Shown here: one piece after another, positions 10,782-54,070 of the stretch
Layout of the letters: each line of letters opens with the position of its first letter
How positions within the stretch are numbered: the first letter of the stretch is position 1
DNA from: Phytoactinopolyspora halotolerans
GTDB taxonomy: Bacteria; Actinomycetota; Actinomycetes; Jiangellales; Jiangellaceae
Direction: 5' to 3'
DNA length: 64,000 nucleotides
NCBI RefSeq assembly: GCF_010550675.1
Contig: NZ_JAAGOA010000012.1
Span: 62,001-126,000, forward strand
Notes under the pieces: model-generated
What the model was told of the DNA's origin: nothing
The model's database searches: none
What the model saw: the letters and a program-made list of their open reading frames with translations, nothing else
Position numbers and translations under genes: made by a program

Positions 10782-10819
10782 AGCTCACTATGGTGCGCTC
10801 ATACTCACCATAGTGAGCT
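10782..10819. repeat. Perfect 14-bp inverted repeat, possible operator
   Basis: Arms agctcactatggtg (10782-10795) and its exact reverse complement (10806-10819) flank a 10-nt loop. No T-run follows, so a terminator is less likely. It lies immediately upstream of a decayed TetR-like fragment and has the length and symmetry of a TetR-family operator. Confidence 0.6.
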
Positions 10820-14659: not shown

Positions 14660-15832
14660 ATGAAGACGCTCCCCGACAACCCGAACCTCGACCATCTGCG
14701 GCGCCAAGCCAAGGACCTCCTGGCCGGTCTCAGAGATTCGCACCCCGACGTATCGCTTGCCGATGCGCAGGCGTCGCTCGCCAGGCAGTACGGCTTCCGC
14801 ACATGGACGGATCTGAAGGCCGAGGTCGACCGCCTTCGAGGCCAGGCCGACATCGCGGACAGCGCATTGACGAGGTCGGTCGCCGAAGGGTTCGGCCTAG
14901 GAGAGCCTATGTGGCCGATGCGGTCGATGGGCTGGGACAACGTCGGCCGGTTGTGGTCACTCGAGACCCGGCGCGGCCGCTGGGTGGCGCGGACGATGGA
15001 CACCTGGATTCCGATCGTCGACGCCGAGACCGACGTCGCACTGCAGCTGGCCGCCGCCGACCACGGTATCCGGCTTCCGATCCCGGTGCGGAGCGCATCC
15101 GGCGCCATCGTCGAGTCGATCGAGGGGCACAGCTGGCGGGTCTACCGGTGGCTGCACTCGGAACCGCCGCTGACCGCGCCAGTCGGCGCCGAAACGGCCC
15201 GCGCTGCGGGCCGGATCCTGGGTACCATCCACCGGCTGGCGCTGCCGGTCGACCGGATCAGCCCGTGGCATGCCGCCCGCCTGACCGGCGTGCGGTGGCC
15301 CGACGTGGCGGCCACGACACAGGCCACCGCCGCACCATGGGCGCCCGCGCTGGTCGAGGCCGTCCCCACCCTCACCGATCTAGAGACGGTCGCCCACGAC
15401 GTGGCGCCGCCCGACCCTGTGCTGTGCCACAACAACTTCACTCCGGGCAACGCGCGGTTGGCCGGCGACGGCACTCTCATCGTCGTCGGCTGGGAGCAGG
15501 CCGGCGGCCAACCGCCGAGTTGGGAACTCGGCGACGCGCTGTGGCACTGGGCGGTCGACCCGGACGGCGGCGTCAACAGCTCCGCCGTCCGGGCTCTGAC
15601 CGACGGCTACCGCTCGACGGCGGGATCGCTCCCGGCGCTGGACATGGGGATGTTCCGGGGCACCGTGATCGGGCTCGGCAACTACGTGTACGAGCAGATC
15701 GAGTGGGCCCTGACCTCCCGCGAGGACGAGGACCGGCGGCACGCCGACCGCAGTGTCAGTCATCTGCTGTCGCATCTGCCGACCCGGGCCACGTTCGAGC
15801 GCATCCTCGGCGAAGTCCGTGGCCGGCCATGA
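14660..15832 (+). CDS. Aminoglycoside-phosphotransferase-fold protein with altered catalytic residues
   Basis: 390 residues. An N-terminal helical module (DNPNLDHLRRQAKDLLAGLRD ... ARQYGFRTWTDLKAEVD, about 8-57) is the one usually attached to ankyrin-repeat proteins. It is fused to a choline-kinase/APH-like domain. The Brenner motif HNDxxxxN reads HNNFTPGN, with Asn259 where the catalytic Asp should be. The metal-binding Asp of the IDWE motif is Gly277 in VVGWEQAG. The protein may therefore be a non-catalytic binder or use other residues. The start ATG follows GAGCGAGGTG. A large palindrome overlaps its stop codon. Confidence 0.75.
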   Translation: MKTLPDNPNLDHLRRQAKDLLAGLRDSHPDVSLADAQASLARQYGFRTWTDLKAEVDRLRGQADIADSALTRSVAEGFGLGEPMWPMRSMGWDNVGRLWSLETRRGRWVARTMDTWIPIVDAETDVALQLAAADHGIRLPIPVRSASGAIVESIEGHSWRVYRWLHSEPPLTAPVGAETARAAGRILGTIHRLALPVDRISPWHAARLTGVRWPDVAATTQATAAPWAPALVEAVPTLTDLETVAHDVAPPDPVLCHNNFTPGNARLAGDGTLIVVGWEQAGGQPPSWELGDALWHWAVDPDGGVNSSAVRALTDGYRSTAGSLPALDMGMFRGTVIGLGNYVYEQIEWALTSREDEDRRHADRSVSHLLSHLPTRATFERILGEVRGRP

Positions 15833-15882
15833 TCATCGAGGAAATGCGGGACCATCACGCCTTCGATCCTCGATGATCATGG
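15827..15882. terminator. Palindromic element copy 1, bidirectional terminator between convergent genes
   Basis: Perfect 16-bp arms (15827-15842 and 15867-15882, CCATGATCATCGAGGA and its complement) with a 24-nt loop. The stop codons of both flanking genes lie inside the element. It belongs to a four-member family whose 50-nt core starts and ends with TGATCA; the core here is 15830-15879. In inverted orientation it matches copy 2 at 45 of 50 positions. Confidence 0.75.
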
Positions 15883-17351: not shown

Positions 17352-18329
17352 ATGATCGGGACGCGACGGGCGAGGTTCATGGCATCCGGAGACAGCGACC
17401 TGCTCAGCGAGCTACTCGCGCCGCTGCGCCTGCACGGCGTCTTCCACAGCCGCTGGTCGATGCGCGCGCCATGGGGCATCGCCGGCGAAGGCGAGGATTG
17501 CGCCCTCATCCACTACGTGCACGAGGGCAGATGCATCGTCGAGATGCCCGGCGCCGCCGAGCCGATCGAACTCGAGCCGGGCGATCTTGCGGTCTTCCCG
17601 CACGGCACGGCGCACCGGCTGGGTGACCGCCCCGGCCGGAGCACCGTACCCCTGGTCAGCCTTCTTCCGGACCGGCCACCAGGAGACGCCCGTAGTGTCC
17701 AGCTCGACGGGCCGGGTCCGGTCACCACCATGCTCTGCGGCGGACTGCACTATGACGTCGCGGCGGTGGCCCCGCTCTATCGGGCGCTGCCGACCGTGTT
17801 CGTGCTCGACGCGGATGCGCTGAAGGGGCAACCGCTGCTCGGCGACACCATGGCCCGGCTCGCCGACAATTGGACCGACGACGAGCCGGGCGCCCAGCTC
17901 GTCGCGCTGCGGGCCTTCGAGCTGGCGTTCGTGCTGGCGTTACGGACGGCCCTGAGCACACTCGCCGACGACGAGCCGGTGTGGCGTGCGCTCAACCATC
18001 CGGCCGTCAGCCCGGCACTGCTCGCCGTCCAAACCCGGTTCAACGAGCCGTGGACACTGGAGAAGCTGGCCGCCGAAGCCGGACTGTCGCGCTCGAGCTT
18101 CGCCGCGACCTTCCGGCGGCTCGTCGGGCAGACCCCGATGGAACACCTGGCCGCCCGCCGGCTCCAGGAGGCCGCGCGGCTGCTCATCGAGACGACGCAG
18201 CCGCATGAGCGGATCGCCGAGCGGGTCGGCTACCGCTCCGGCGTCGGCTTCCACCTGGCCTTCCGGAACCGCTACGGCCAGACCCCCGGCGAGTACCGTC
18301 GCACCCGACGCCCCACCTCTCCCTCATGA
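17352..18329 (+). CDS. AraC-family regulator with cupin sensor domain
   Basis: 325 residues. The N-terminal cupin-type sensor (HYVHEGRCIVEMPGAAEPIELEPGDLAVFPHGTAHRL) is followed by two C-terminal HTH motifs (WTLEKLAAEAGLSRSSFAATFRRLVGQTPMEHLAARRLQEA and ERIAERVGYRSGVGFHLAFRNRYGQTPGEYR). The start ATG has AGAGG six bases upstream. It faces away from the NmrA-like/SnoaL-like pair, which it likely controls in response to a small hydrophobic molecule. Its 3' end runs into palindromic element copy 2. Confidence 0.88.
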   Translation: MIGTRRARFMASGDSDLLSELLAPLRLHGVFHSRWSMRAPWGIAGEGEDCALIHYVHEGRCIVEMPGAAEPIELEPGDLAVFPHGTAHRLGDRPGRSTVPLVSLLPDRPPGDARSVQLDGPGPVTTMLCGGLHYDVAAVAPLYRALPTVFVLDADALKGQPLLGDTMARLADNWTDDEPGAQLVALRAFELAFVLALRTALSTLADDEPVWRALNHPAVSPALLAVQTRFNEPWTLEKLAAEAGLSRSSFAATFRRLVGQTPMEHLAARRLQEAARLLIETTQPHERIAERVGYRSGVGFHLAFRNRYGQTPGEYRRTRRPTSPS

Positions 18330-18378
18330 TCATCGAGGATCGGCGGTGTGATGGTCCCGCAGATCCTCGATGATCATG
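18325..18378. terminator. Palindromic element copy 2, bidirectional terminator between convergent genes
   Basis: Perfect 17-bp arms (18325-18341 and 18362-18378) with a 20-nt loop. It overlaps the 3' ends of the AraC gene (plus) and the PAP2 phosphatase gene (minus). The 50-nt core is 18327-18376 and is 90 percent identical to copy 1 read in the opposite orientation. Confidence 0.75.
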
Positions 18379-20622: not shown

Positions 20623-21663
20623 ATGGCCATGATGCGCAGTGCGCCCGCCGAGCGCGGCACCACCACCGTCACCGGCGGAACCGGCTGGCGTGGTGGTCGA
20701 GTGGCCCTGAGCGCTCTGATCTGGACTACCAGCTACAGTGCGCTGCGGGTGTATTGGCAGGTCACCGGAGAACCCGGCGAGATGTCGCCGATCGGAGACG
20801 ACCTCGTCGCCTTCACCGGCTGGGGCGCGGTCATCCTCTGCGGGCTGGCTGCCATCACCGCCGGCGGCCTGGCCTGGGCGGGTAGGGCCTGCTCGGGCAT
20901 CACCGGCCCGGTACGACGCATGCTGCTCGCCGCGGGATGGACCACCAGCCTGGGCCTCGTCGCCTCCGGGGCGATGCTGCTGCTGGACATCGTGGGCGGC
21001 GTGTTGCCCGGCCTCGGCGTCGAGTTCTATCCCCGGGGCGCGCTGAGCCGGGTGACGTGCGTCGGCGGCGGAGCGATGCTGGCCGTGGCTACCTGGTCTC
21101 TGCAGGGTCGCACCGGCGCCCGATGCCGGGACTGCGGACGGAGCTGGGCGGCCATGCGTGCGCTCCCGCGGACACCTCGGTGGGCATTCGGCATGGCCTA
21201 TGTCGCCGTACTGGGTTTCCTCGTCCGACTCGTCGCGCAACTCGTCGTCGGACTGAACGAGTCGCCACTGACGACCGGCATGTCCCTGCTGCTCTTCGAG
21301 TTCGGGTTCGTGCTTGCCGGCACGCTGCTGCCGCTCGCGCTTGTTCATCGGTGGGGCCGGATCTGGCCGCGGTGGGCCGTCGGGTTGGCCGGCCGGCGGG
21401 TACCTCGGTGGCTGGTTCTGGGCCCGGCAGCCGGCATCGCGGGTGGACTCGTCATCTATTTCGGTCTGCTGCTCGGCCAGATGACCGTGGCACGGCTCAA
21501 CGGGCGGAACCCGTTTCCACCGTCGGGCGGCCTCGACCTGCCCGAGGCGTTCTTCTGGTTCGCCGTCCCCGCGTACCTGGTATGGGGGATCGGGGTGGCC
21601 GCCGCCGCGCTGGCGTACTTCCGCCGCACCCGACGGCCATGCCCGACCTGCACATCCCCATGA
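20623..21663 (+). CDS. Polytopic membrane protein of unknown function
   Basis: 346 residues with about eight hydrophobic segments spread over the whole length. Cytosolic-looking CxxC pairs occur at RCRDCGRSW (about residue 169) and at the extreme C-terminus (RPCPTCTSP), which might bind zinc or form disulfides. I do not recognise a named family. The ATG at 20623 was chosen over upstream codons, which read as Arg/His-rich noise. It lies between two secreted phosphatase genes that point towards and away from it. Its stop overlaps palindromic element copy 4. Confidence 0.7.
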   Translation: MAMMRSAPAERGTTTVTGGTGWRGGRVALSALIWTTSYSALRVYWQVTGEPGEMSPIGDDLVAFTGWGAVILCGLAAITAGGLAWAGRACSGITGPVRRMLLAAGWTTSLGLVASGAMLLLDIVGGVLPGLGVEFYPRGALSRVTCVGGGAMLAVATWSLQGRTGARCRDCGRSWAAMRALPRTPRWAFGMAYVAVLGFLVRLVAQLVVGLNESPLTTGMSLLLFEFGFVLAGTLLPLALVHRWGRIWPRWAVGLAGRRVPRWLVLGPAAGIAGGLVIYFGLLLGQMTVARLNGRNPFPPSGGLDLPEAFFWFAVPAYLVWGIGVAAAALAYFRRTRRPCPTCTSP

Positions 21664-21712
21664 TCATCAACCGCTGGTCGCACCATGACCGGTCCCACCG
21701 TTGATGATCATC
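21658..21712. terminator. Palindromic element copy 4, bidirectional terminator between convergent genes
   Basis: Terminal arms ATGATCATCAAC (21660-21671) and its exact complement (21700-21711) enclose a 28-nt centre. It fills the 51-bp gap between the convergent membrane-protein and PhoD genes. The 50-nt core is 21661-21710 and is the inverted relative of copy 3. Confidence 0.7.
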
Positions 21713-52267: not shown

Positions 52268-53059
52268 TCATCGCTGCGACGGCAACGGCTCCCCGGTCTC
52301 CAGCAGCGTCTTCAGGCTGGACAGCAGCTCCGGCCAGCCCTGGCTGACCATCTCCAGCATGGTGCTGTCCGGTTCGAAGCCGTCATGCACGACGGTCAAC
52401 TTGACCATGTCCCCGTGCGGTTCGATCTCGAAGGTCACCTTCGAACGACGCTCCCCGCGAAGCTTCTCGGCCGTCTCGTCGTCGAGGTCGACCGCCTTCG
52501 CGAACTCGGGCGTCACCGTGTGCCAGGTGAAGGAGAGCCGGCGATACGGCTCCGATTCCAGGACCACCTGCTCGGGGTCCGCCATCGCGACATCACCCAT
52601 GTTCCAGACCATCGTCGAACCGGTCTGCCAGTCGGTGTCGAAGGTGACGTGCCAGTAGCGGCGGGTGAACGCCGGGTCGGTCAGGGCTCGCCAGAGCTTC
52701 TCCGGCGTGGTGTTGATATACGTGGCGTAGACGAACTCGGGCTTGTCCATCGGGTTCTCCTCCAGCGCTCTCTTCAGGTCGGCGAGTGCATGCACGCGCT
52801 CGCGGTGGTACCGGTTGATCCAGCGGTCGGAGATGGCGTTGATCGGTTCGGCGTTCAGGTAGTGCAGCTTCTCCCGGCCCCGCCACACGGTGGTGACCAG
52901 GTTCGCCGCCTCCAGCACGGCCAGGTGCTTGCTGACCGACTGCCGGGCCATGGCCAGTTCGGCACACAGCTCTCGCAGCGTCTGGCCATCGCGAGCATTC
53001 AGGCTGTCCAACAACCGACGACGACTGGCATCAGCGAGCGCCTTGAACACCTCATCCAT
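52268..53059 (-). CDS. ArsR-type HTH fused to an SRPBCC (AHSA1) domain
   Basis: 263 residues. Residues 1-85 are a winged helix of ArsR type (MDEVFKALADASRRRLLDSLNARDGQTLRELCAELAMARQSVSKHLAVLEAANLVTTVWRG). Residues from about 105 on form an SRPBCC/START-like ligand-binding fold (EFVYATYINTTPEKLWRALTDPAFTRRYW ... VTFEIEPHGDMVKLTVVHDGF ... GWPELLSSLKTLLETGE). These parts are usually neighbouring genes; here one protein may sense a hydrophobic ligand directly. The start may also be the ATG at 53080, seven codons upstream. Paired operators overlap the start. Confidence 0.87.
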   Translation of the reverse strand: MDEVFKALADASRRRLLDSLNARDGQTLRELCAELAMARQSVSKHLAVLEAANLVTTVWRGREKLHYLNAEPINAISDRWINRYHRERVHALADLKRALEENPMDKPEFVYATYINTTPEKLWRALTDPAFTRRYWHVTFDTDWQTGSTMVWNMGDVAMADPEQVVLESEPYRRLSFTWHTVTPEFAKAVDLDDETAEKLRGERRSKVTFEIEPHGDMVKLTVVHDGFEPDSTMLEMVSQGWPELLSSLKTLLETGEPLPSQR

Positions 53060-53078
53060 CACCAGACCATCCTCCAAC

Positions 53079-53124
53079 ATGCAGCCTCGCGGCTGCATAT
53101 CACAATAGGCAGCTACTTGGCTGC
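53079..53124. promoter_or_regulatory. Two GCAGC-N6-GCTGC operators at the ArsR-SRPBCC promoter
   Basis: Site 1 is ATGCAGCC-N4-GGCTGCAT (53079-53098). Site 2 is GCAGC-N6-GCTGC (53109-53124). The cores are identical and their left edges are 28 bp apart, close to three helical turns. Site 1 overlaps the region around the translation start. They are the probable autoregulatory sites of the fusion protein. Confidence 0.6.
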
Positions 53125-53158
53125 ATGTCAAACACGAGCACCTGGACCCACACGTAAG

Positions 53159-53213
53159 CCTTTGCAATGCACACATATACGCACCGCCCGCGTATATGTG
53201 TGCATTGCAAAGG
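53159..53213. repeat. Perfect hairpin with 24-bp arms
   Basis: The left arm 53159-53182 and right arm 53190-53213 are exact complements over 24 bp, with a 7-nt loop (accgccc). The arms contain AT-rich stretches (cacatatac), unlike the surrounding DNA. It lies between divergent genes, 135 bp before the pterin-dehydratase/VOC gene, so it is not a terminator of either. It could be an operator, a cruciform or the stem of an RNA. Confidence 0.85.
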
Positions 53214-53347: not shown

Positions 53348-54070
53348 ATGATGGGGTTGATGGACGATCAGGCATTCGGCGCGGACCGGAAGCTGACCCG
53401 GCAAGAGGCATCCGACGCCGTCATGGAGCTGGGCTGGCGCTACGTCCTGGGCGCCTTACAGTCCGGTGTGGCGATCAGCAGGCTCAGCCAGGCCGCTGAC
53501 ATCGCCGCGCTCGCCACGGACGTCGCCGGCGCGCACGCCGACCGTCACCTGCGCATCGACCTCCGACGCGACCGCGTCACGCTGACCTTGCAGACGCTCG
53601 AGGTGGCCGCGGTCACGGCGCGCGACGTCGATCTCGCCGAACGCATCTCGGCGGCCATCGACGACCTCGAGCTCACCACCTCAGCCGAGGTCGGAGGTGC
53701 GCAGCGCTCGGTCCAGACCATCGAGATCGCCATCGACGCCATGGATATCGCGGCTATCCGGCCGTTCTGGAAGGCGGTCCTGGGTTACACCGACGAGGCT
53801 GGTCGCGCCGGCCCGAGCGATCCGCTCGTCGATCCGTTCGGCCAAGGACCCGCCGTATGGTTCCAGCAGATGGATGTGCCGCGGCTCGATCGCAACCGCA
53901 TCCATCTGGACATCTCGGTACCGCACGACGAGGCCCAACGTCGGCTCCAGGCCGCCCTCGACGCCGGCGGCACGCTCGTCTCCAACGACCGCGCACCTGC
54001 GTTCTGGGTGCTCGCCGATGCCGAGAGCAACGAGGCGTGCATCACCACCTGGCAAGGTCGCGAGGGCTGA
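53348..54070 (+). CDS. Pterin-4a-carbinolamine-dehydratase-like and VOC/glyoxalase fusion
   Basis: 240 residues. Residues about 10-105 resemble PCD/DCoH (LTRQEASDAVMELGWRYVLGALQ ... HADRHLRIDLRRDRVTLTLQTLEVAAVTARDVDLAERI). Residues 115-240 are a glyoxalase-like VOC module (VQTIEIAIDAMDIAAIRPFWKAVLGYTD ... VWFQQMDVPRLDRNRIHLDISVP ... FWVLADAESNEACITTW). The PCD HxxH-type active site is not clearly complete, so activity is uncertain. Adjacent in-frame ATGs at 53348, 53351 and 53360 are possible starts; no clear ribosome-binding site is seen. Confidence 0.78.
   Translation: MMGLMDDQAFGADRKLTRQEASDAVMELGWRYVLGALQSGVAISRLSQAADIAALATDVAGAHADRHLRIDLRRDRVTLTLQTLEVAAVTARDVDLAERISAAIDDLELTTSAEVGGAQRSVQTIEIAIDAMDIAAIRPFWKAVLGYTDEAGRAGPSDPLVDPFGQGPAVWFQQMDVPRLDRNRIHLDISVPHDEAQRRLQAALDAGGTLVSNDRAPAFWVLADAESNEACITTWQGREG

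Follow-up and report, generated by a model that had tools for sequence, protein, structure and literature searches.

A long, exact hairpin stands between two divergently oriented genes of Phytoactinopolyspora halotolerans, which raises the question of what this palindrome is and what keeps its two arms alike. The hairpin lies within a 64,000-nucleotide stretch of the genome, the whole of which is called the window here.

The hairpin is one of many copies in its genome

The complete inverted-repeat element occupies positions 53159..53213. Its left arm (53159..53182, + strand) contains the 22-nt family core TTTGCAATGCACACATATACGC at 53161-53182 and its right arm (53190..53213, - strand) is an exact inverted copy. 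The 24-nt arms are 100% complementary and are separated by a 7-nt spacer (53183..53189), as an earlier note on this DNA had described. The divergent setting reported there was also confirmed: to the left is a gene predicted to encode ArsR-type HTH and AHSA1 domains (52268..53080, - strand) and to the right is a gene with pterin-4a-dehydratase-like and glyoxalase-like parts (53348..54070, + strand), with one predicted start ~80 nt and the other ~135 nt from the element. The stem had been called AT-rich, which holds in a relative sense only; the G+C content of the element is 50.9% and that of the window 68.9%, with 1.9% of 55-mers being equally G+C-poor. The segment 53140-53240, which also takes in a small adjoining hairpin, has a predicted RNA fold of -50.1 kcal/mol (z -7.29) that none of 200 shuffles equalled. 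The suggestion of a small RNA found no support in Rfam, where all 15 matches were below the gathering score and belonged to microRNA families, and we rejected a known structured RNA because no match rose above gathering.

When a 21-nt stretch of the arm was searched against the window with up to 3 mismatches, it matched the two arms only, and 100 shuffles gave no match. In the whole P. halotolerans genome (G000; 7.30 Mb in 65 contigs) the 22-nt arm core with up to 3 mismatches gave 23 forward and 23 reverse matches, with none in the backwards control. These 46 arms sit in 23 places, of which 21 consist of a forward arm followed by a reverse arm, facing inward; a single recognisable arm was found at the other two (L042, L048). 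Spacers range from 6 to 858 nt and their sequences differ among copies.

To describe the element across genomes we collected 157 sites, comprising all listed places in G000 and its congener G001 and a part of those in four relatives (G009, 56; G010, 20; G019, 29; G015, 6). A simple pair of a forward and a reverse arm was present at 129 of the 157. Because exact matches took precedence when sites were listed and fetched, conservation within the 22-mer is biased upward. Positions 15-20 of the stem contain 46 of the 55 unpaired cells, giving a bipartite pattern of conservation. Some long spacers (L176, L178, L180, L158, L184) hold further hairpins seen by eye, for example around GGCGGGTGGTTTGGTGG. 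At one site in each of two genomes (L057:3020-3979 in G000 and L077:2949-3822 in G001) a predicted Cro/C1-type HTH gene of ~220 aa lies between the two arms.

Other palindromes were noted in the window. An imperfect one with GGCTGCAT-type motifs at 53077-53128, in front of the ArsR-type gene, is largely conserved in the congeners G001 and G002 and is possibly that gene's own operator. A further dispersed hairpin family, with CATGATCATC as its outer motif, occurs at 15827-15882, 18325-18378 and ~21660-21712, the first two copies having perfect arms of 16 and 17 nt, and similar hairpins were seen at L050 and L055 in G000 and at L343 and L351 in G019. An isolated 14-nt perfect hairpin, AGCTCACTATGGTG, at 10782-10819 falls outside these families.

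The family is seen only in Jiangellaceae

Searching the genome and its relatives with the arm sequence, as the earlier note had proposed, uncovered many further copies. When up to 2 mismatches to a degenerate 22-nt pattern are allowed, 11 of 22 Jiangellaceae genomes match, the number of arms ranging from 1 to 132 per genome. In a class-wide sample searched with 1 mismatch, 11 of 393 genomes matched, all of them Jiangellaceae, and none of the 371 genomes outside the family did. With up to 3 mismatches we counted 148 arms in G009, 69 in G019 and the 46 in G000; the backwards control gave one match each in G009 and G019. The exact arm 21-mer is also present in Phytoactinopolyspora alkaliphila. 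Viral contigs contained no exact match to the 22-nt pattern, leading us to reject viral carriage of the repeat. Literature searches naming Jiangella or Phytoactinopolyspora returned no title on dispersed palindromes. These sequence comparisons are best read as placing the hairpin in a REP-like, non-autonomous family of inverted repeats (TTTGCAATG) seen only in Jiangellaceae. Among the earlier guesses the nearest was a mobile-element relic, in that the family is dispersed and multi-copy.

Of the 11 genomes without the TTTGCAATG family, three (G003, G004 and G006) contain a second inverted-repeat family, CGGTGATCGTTG(G/C)CG (locus L296), and in G006 nine CGGTGATCGTTG pairs are 45 nt apart. The arm CTTCGGTGATCGTTGGCG, searched with up to 2 mismatches, had 33, 27 and 30 matches in these three genomes and 0-3 in each of the 19 others; the backwards control gave 0-2. 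The other eight non-carrier genomes show neither family. Given the CGGTGATCGTTG family in three non-carriers, it looks as if lineages may swap whole recognition codes.

Copies lie near the 3' ends of genes

Genes around the copies were called with a crude codon-usage script, and 151 sites could be classified against background gaps matched for size. We found 63 copies in convergent, 71 in co-directional and 17 in divergent gaps, where the background predicts 25.9, 73.5 and 51.6; without size matching, 57 of 143 sites were convergent compared to 13 of 133 background gaps. The median distance to a neighbouring stop codon was 47 nt (183 distances). Thus, copies sit between genes, are biased to 3' ends and are scarce at divergent promoters. 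REPs have a similar bias to gene 3' ends (PMC3733652). A predicted gene was overlapped at 13 sites, and in 8 of these the overlap was 10 bases ending in TGA within the arm. At these loci (L256, L247, L261, L262, L268, L222, L146 and L191) the first ten bases of the arm supply the neighbour's predicted stop.

Comparison of orthologous gaps showed that copies can be present in one genome and absent from its relatives. In G001 and G002 both genes next to the window copy are conserved, but the gap between them lacks the repeat. Absence from close relatives, a possibility that the earlier note had considered, is thus true of this site but not of the family, copies of which are widespread elsewhere. 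The gap in G000 is ~150 bases longer, exceeding the element itself. We fetched 20 stretches of G019 at the predicted counterparts of G009 copies missing in G019, and in these stretches we could locate 10 of the 56 G009 sites. In five of the 10 G019 gaps almost nothing separates the flank matches (-7 to 12 nt), a sixth spans 58 nt, another three hold 401-911 nt of other DNA, and at the last, the convergent junction L262/L351, an unrelated CATGATCATC hairpin is present. In these 10 filled and empty pairs, whose flanks are too diverged for exact joints, no target-site duplication is visible. The empty G019 site corresponding to L270 resembles a deletion between short direct repeats; therefore, absence of a copy need not mean that it was never inserted. 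One gap, between genes that we take from the look of their protein starts to be pyrC and carA, contains the element in G009, G019 and G001. In G006 it holds another inverted repeat, whose arm is CTTCGGTGATCGTTGGCG, and in ten other Jiangella-like genomes, where the aligned flanks are 11-34 nt apart, it has no element. Arms also form local tandem arrays in which flanking bases have been carried along (L160, L152, L156). The array at L160:1962-2288 has eight forward arms in tandem with a period of ~38 bp and one reverse arm; its G019 orthologue (L185) is a simple pair.

The location of copies is what would be expected if the element acted as an RNA hairpin, that is, as a portable terminator or mRNA 3'-end stabiliser kept for ending or protecting the transcripts of the upstream gene. 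The excess in convergent gaps, the deficit in divergent gaps and the short distance to stop codons all favour this explanation, as do the strong fold of the window copy and the two gaps, the convergent junction L262/L351 and pyrC-carA, where another hairpin takes the place of this family. But the window copy and 16 others of the 151 are between divergent genes, and the window copy has no T-run on either strand. In addition, pairing alone leaves unexplained both the change at arm position 24 described below and the fact that the stem is invariant in sequence at most of its positions. We consider an RNA hairpin a possible but somewhat unlikely account of the family.

Orthologous copies changed together at arm position 24

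Beyond the search pattern the arms extend inward mostly as A-N-C, and the inner triplet differs between genomes. It is ACC in 38 of 39 arms in G010, 117 of 126 in G009 and 9 of 11 in G015, ATC in 57 of 59 arms in G019, and mixed in G000, with AAC in 22 of 46. Of the 25 orthologous pairs from the sister species G009 and G019 with both flanks, we compared 22; L157 and L162 were left out for having a single arm and L258 for its short flank match, and all three likewise have ACC versus ATC. Position 24 differed in 42 of the 44 arms, with 20 of the 22 elements affected on both sides. It also differed in 13 of 14 arms between G010 and G019 and in 0 of 20 between G009 and G010. Since position 24 is outside the 22-mer search pattern, the shift is not a product of the search.

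The flanks of the same 22 elements are 94.5% identical over 1.2 kb and 77% identical over 40 bp. In aligned flanks the same six-base context changed from CGCACC to CGCATC in 5 of 124 cases. From this control and one A-to-T case (L253/L286) we rejected a C-to-T mutation bias as the source of the shift. Flank identities to G010 are 89.6% and 89.3%, making G009 and G019 closer to each other than to G010; as G015 is mostly ACC, the simplest placement of the change would be on the branch leading to G019. Fixed, orthologous copies have thus changed one base together, mostly in both arms and far beyond the change in their flanks.

Spacer length shows a further regularity in three Jiangella-like genomes. 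Among spacers of 40 nt or less in G009, G010 and G019, 85 of 92 are 6, 16-18 or 26-28 nt long, steps of about one helical turn, although many of the 92 are orthologous and therefore not independent. In G009 by itself 45 of 48 spacers fall in these bins. No phasing was found in the genus of the window (G000 and G001), where 6 of 21 spacers are in the bins (R 0.09).

The two arms of a copy tend to match

Within copies, the base at position 16 matched between arms more often than expected in G019 (18 of 28 versus 7.8; 0 of 2000 shuffles) and in G009 (24 of 52 versus 14; p 0.0015), and weakly so in G001 (9 of 16 versus 5.2; p 0.04). The match was not significant in G010 (13 of 19 versus 10.3; p 0.07) or in G000 (15 of 21 versus 14.6). 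The idea that the loop varies while the arms co-vary is therefore borne out in G009 and G019 but is weak or absent in G000 and G010. Across 47 elements with 6-nt spacers, representing 40 distinct 50-mers, stem pairing was 94.3% compared to 90.6% after shuffling. Position 16 was mispaired in 19 of the 40, indicating that pairing is favoured but not strict, which also counts against the RNA hairpin.

Template switching at inverted repeats homogenises arms and inverts spacers in yeast, as described in PMC8604942. In 16 comparisons of spacer orientation we scored 7 as direct, 5 as inverted and 4 as ties; L272/L289 is one clear spacer inversion and the sole convincing case. In J. gansuensis the same variant was present in both arms of 4 of the 5 well-separated pairs collected, with spacers of 141-723 nt. 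Gene conversion, which the earlier note had offered for perfect arms, is one possible cause of this matching alongside others.

Matched arms and species-specific consensus sequences could also arise if the repeat were a selfish, MITE- or REPIN-like element in which a few master copies overwrite or replace the others by gene conversion or re-insertion. The well-separated J. gansuensis pairs fit this explanation, as does position 16, which differs between G009 and G019 in 24 of 44 arms, whereas the 1.2-kb flanks changed by 5.5%. This turnover fits some overwriting of arms and is not accounted for by selection through a binding protein. However, sites vary at position 16 and are uniform at position 24: in G019, 36 of 56 arms have a non-majority base at position 16, eight bases from position 24. 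This speaks against simple overwriting from a single master and weakens homogenisation from such a source. Some spacers have stayed site-specific despite the shift in their arms (L253/L286, L261/L218), and no transposase was found in the search of 20 genomes with PF01797. On balance we think a selfish master-copy element fairly unlikely.

A putative reader of the half-sites

We propose a new REP-like inverted-repeat family whose half-sites are read by a putative protein and whose arms are kept matched by template switching, an account that we judge to have an even chance of being correct. A single trans-acting protein, which might be transposase-like, recombinase-like or chromosome-binding, would recognise each half-site in double-stranded DNA. 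Its contacts would fall in positions 1-14, the outer block, and in ~18-25, the inner block, skipping positions 15-17. If its specificity drifted, the copies would follow, leading to a species-wide shift, while template switching during replication at the palindrome would keep the arms matched. Copies would persist where a hairpin is least harmful, or useful, immediately after stop codons. The dispersed pairs limited to one family, the presence or absence of copies at orthologous sites, the joint change at position 24, the helical phasing and the bipartite conservation speak for this account, and the matched arms at position 16 and the inverted spacer of L272/L289 for template switching. Against it stand the missing phasing in the window's genus, the lack of a readable target-site duplication, the apparent deletion at L270, the fast turnover of position 16 and its non-significant arm matching in G000 and G010.

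We infer such a protein, and no gene for it was found: PF01797 matched none of the 20 genomes searched, and a crude scan for motifs in the fetched loci recognised no transposase. The first candidate is the Cro/C1-type HTH protein encoded between the arms at L057 and L077. A 25-nt half-site would carry information well in excess of what an ordinary regulator requires, which speaks against a protein reader; the earlier note had made a similar point about the length of the palindrome. We tentatively suggest, with doubt outweighing confidence, that a trans-acting system of Jiangellaceae reads, and perhaps rewrites, palindromes at gene ends, and that its recognition may have changed by one base in one species, where copies at fixed sites followed in both arms.

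Movement of a classical REPIN population by a RAYT (REP-associated tyrosine transposase) would account for the inverted pairs, variable spacer, extragenic position and 3'-end bias, which are as described in PMC3116915 and PMC3733652, but it is very improbable here. The PF01797 (Y1_Tnp) profile was positive in 0 of the 20 genomes and in 5 of 14 control genomes with the same search, and the GTAG tag is absent from the arm consensus. A neutral one-off insertion or chance palindrome, which the earlier note had raised should no other copies exist, has in its favour the empty orthologous gaps in G001 and G002 but is negligible and was rejected given the 46 arms of the G000 search, in 22 other places besides the window copy, and the 148 in one relative.

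Comparison with known systems

Like many copies of the family, bidirectional terminator hairpins place a long stem beyond the stop codons of two convergent genes. Most copies of the Jiangellaceae family other than the window copy lie downstream of a gene. Unlike such terminators, the family has near-identical arms across loci and some copies in divergent gaps. The window copy, lacking a T-run and lying between divergent genes, does not have the form of a Rho-independent terminator.

MITEs are non-autonomous elements with terminal inverted repeats that are present or absent between relatives, and their end variants often match. The Jiangellaceae copies share the terminal inverted repeats, the non-autonomous nature, the presence or absence between relatives and the frequent matching of variants between ends. 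They differ from MITEs in that internal sequences vary among copies. They may also differ in that no target-site duplication was seen in the 10 pairs compared and no autonomous partner among the fetched loci, where the Cro/C1-type HTH gene at L057 and L077 was all that was noted between two arms.

The closest resemblance is to the REPs and REPINs of Pseudomonas and E. coli, described as short extragenic palindromes, mostly in inverted doublets with a less conserved spacer and a bias to gene 3' ends (PMC3116915, PMC3733652). The Jiangellaceae family likewise consists of short, extragenic palindromic units in inverted doublets around a spacer, in many copies and biased to gene 3' ends. It differs in its ~25-nt half-site, in having neither a GTAG nor a CGTC tag at one end of the arm consensus or the copies, and in that no Y1/RAYT gene was found in any of the 20 genomes searched; across 339 sequences, a crude scan for HUH-protein motifs likewise gave no recognisable Y1 transposase. 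Because the defining transposase was not found in any of the 20, we rejected identity with RAYT/REPIN as far as the PF01797 model reaches and filed the repeat as its own REP-like family. A further parallel is with the CGTC-tagged REPs, which according to the authors of PMC3733652 apparently have no dedicated transposase; the present family is also REP-like with no transposase found, although its arm has no CGTC tag. The main text of that paper contains no occurrence of the word "actinobacteria". Unlike REPs and REPINs, the orthologous copies compared here shift together at one position. REP-like repeats occur commonly in bacteria, and whether transposition, gene conversion or selection maintains the likeness among their copies has long been debated. 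The present lineage, in which the search found no usual REP transposase, makes the question directly testable through a pair of sister species with a one-base difference in the arm.
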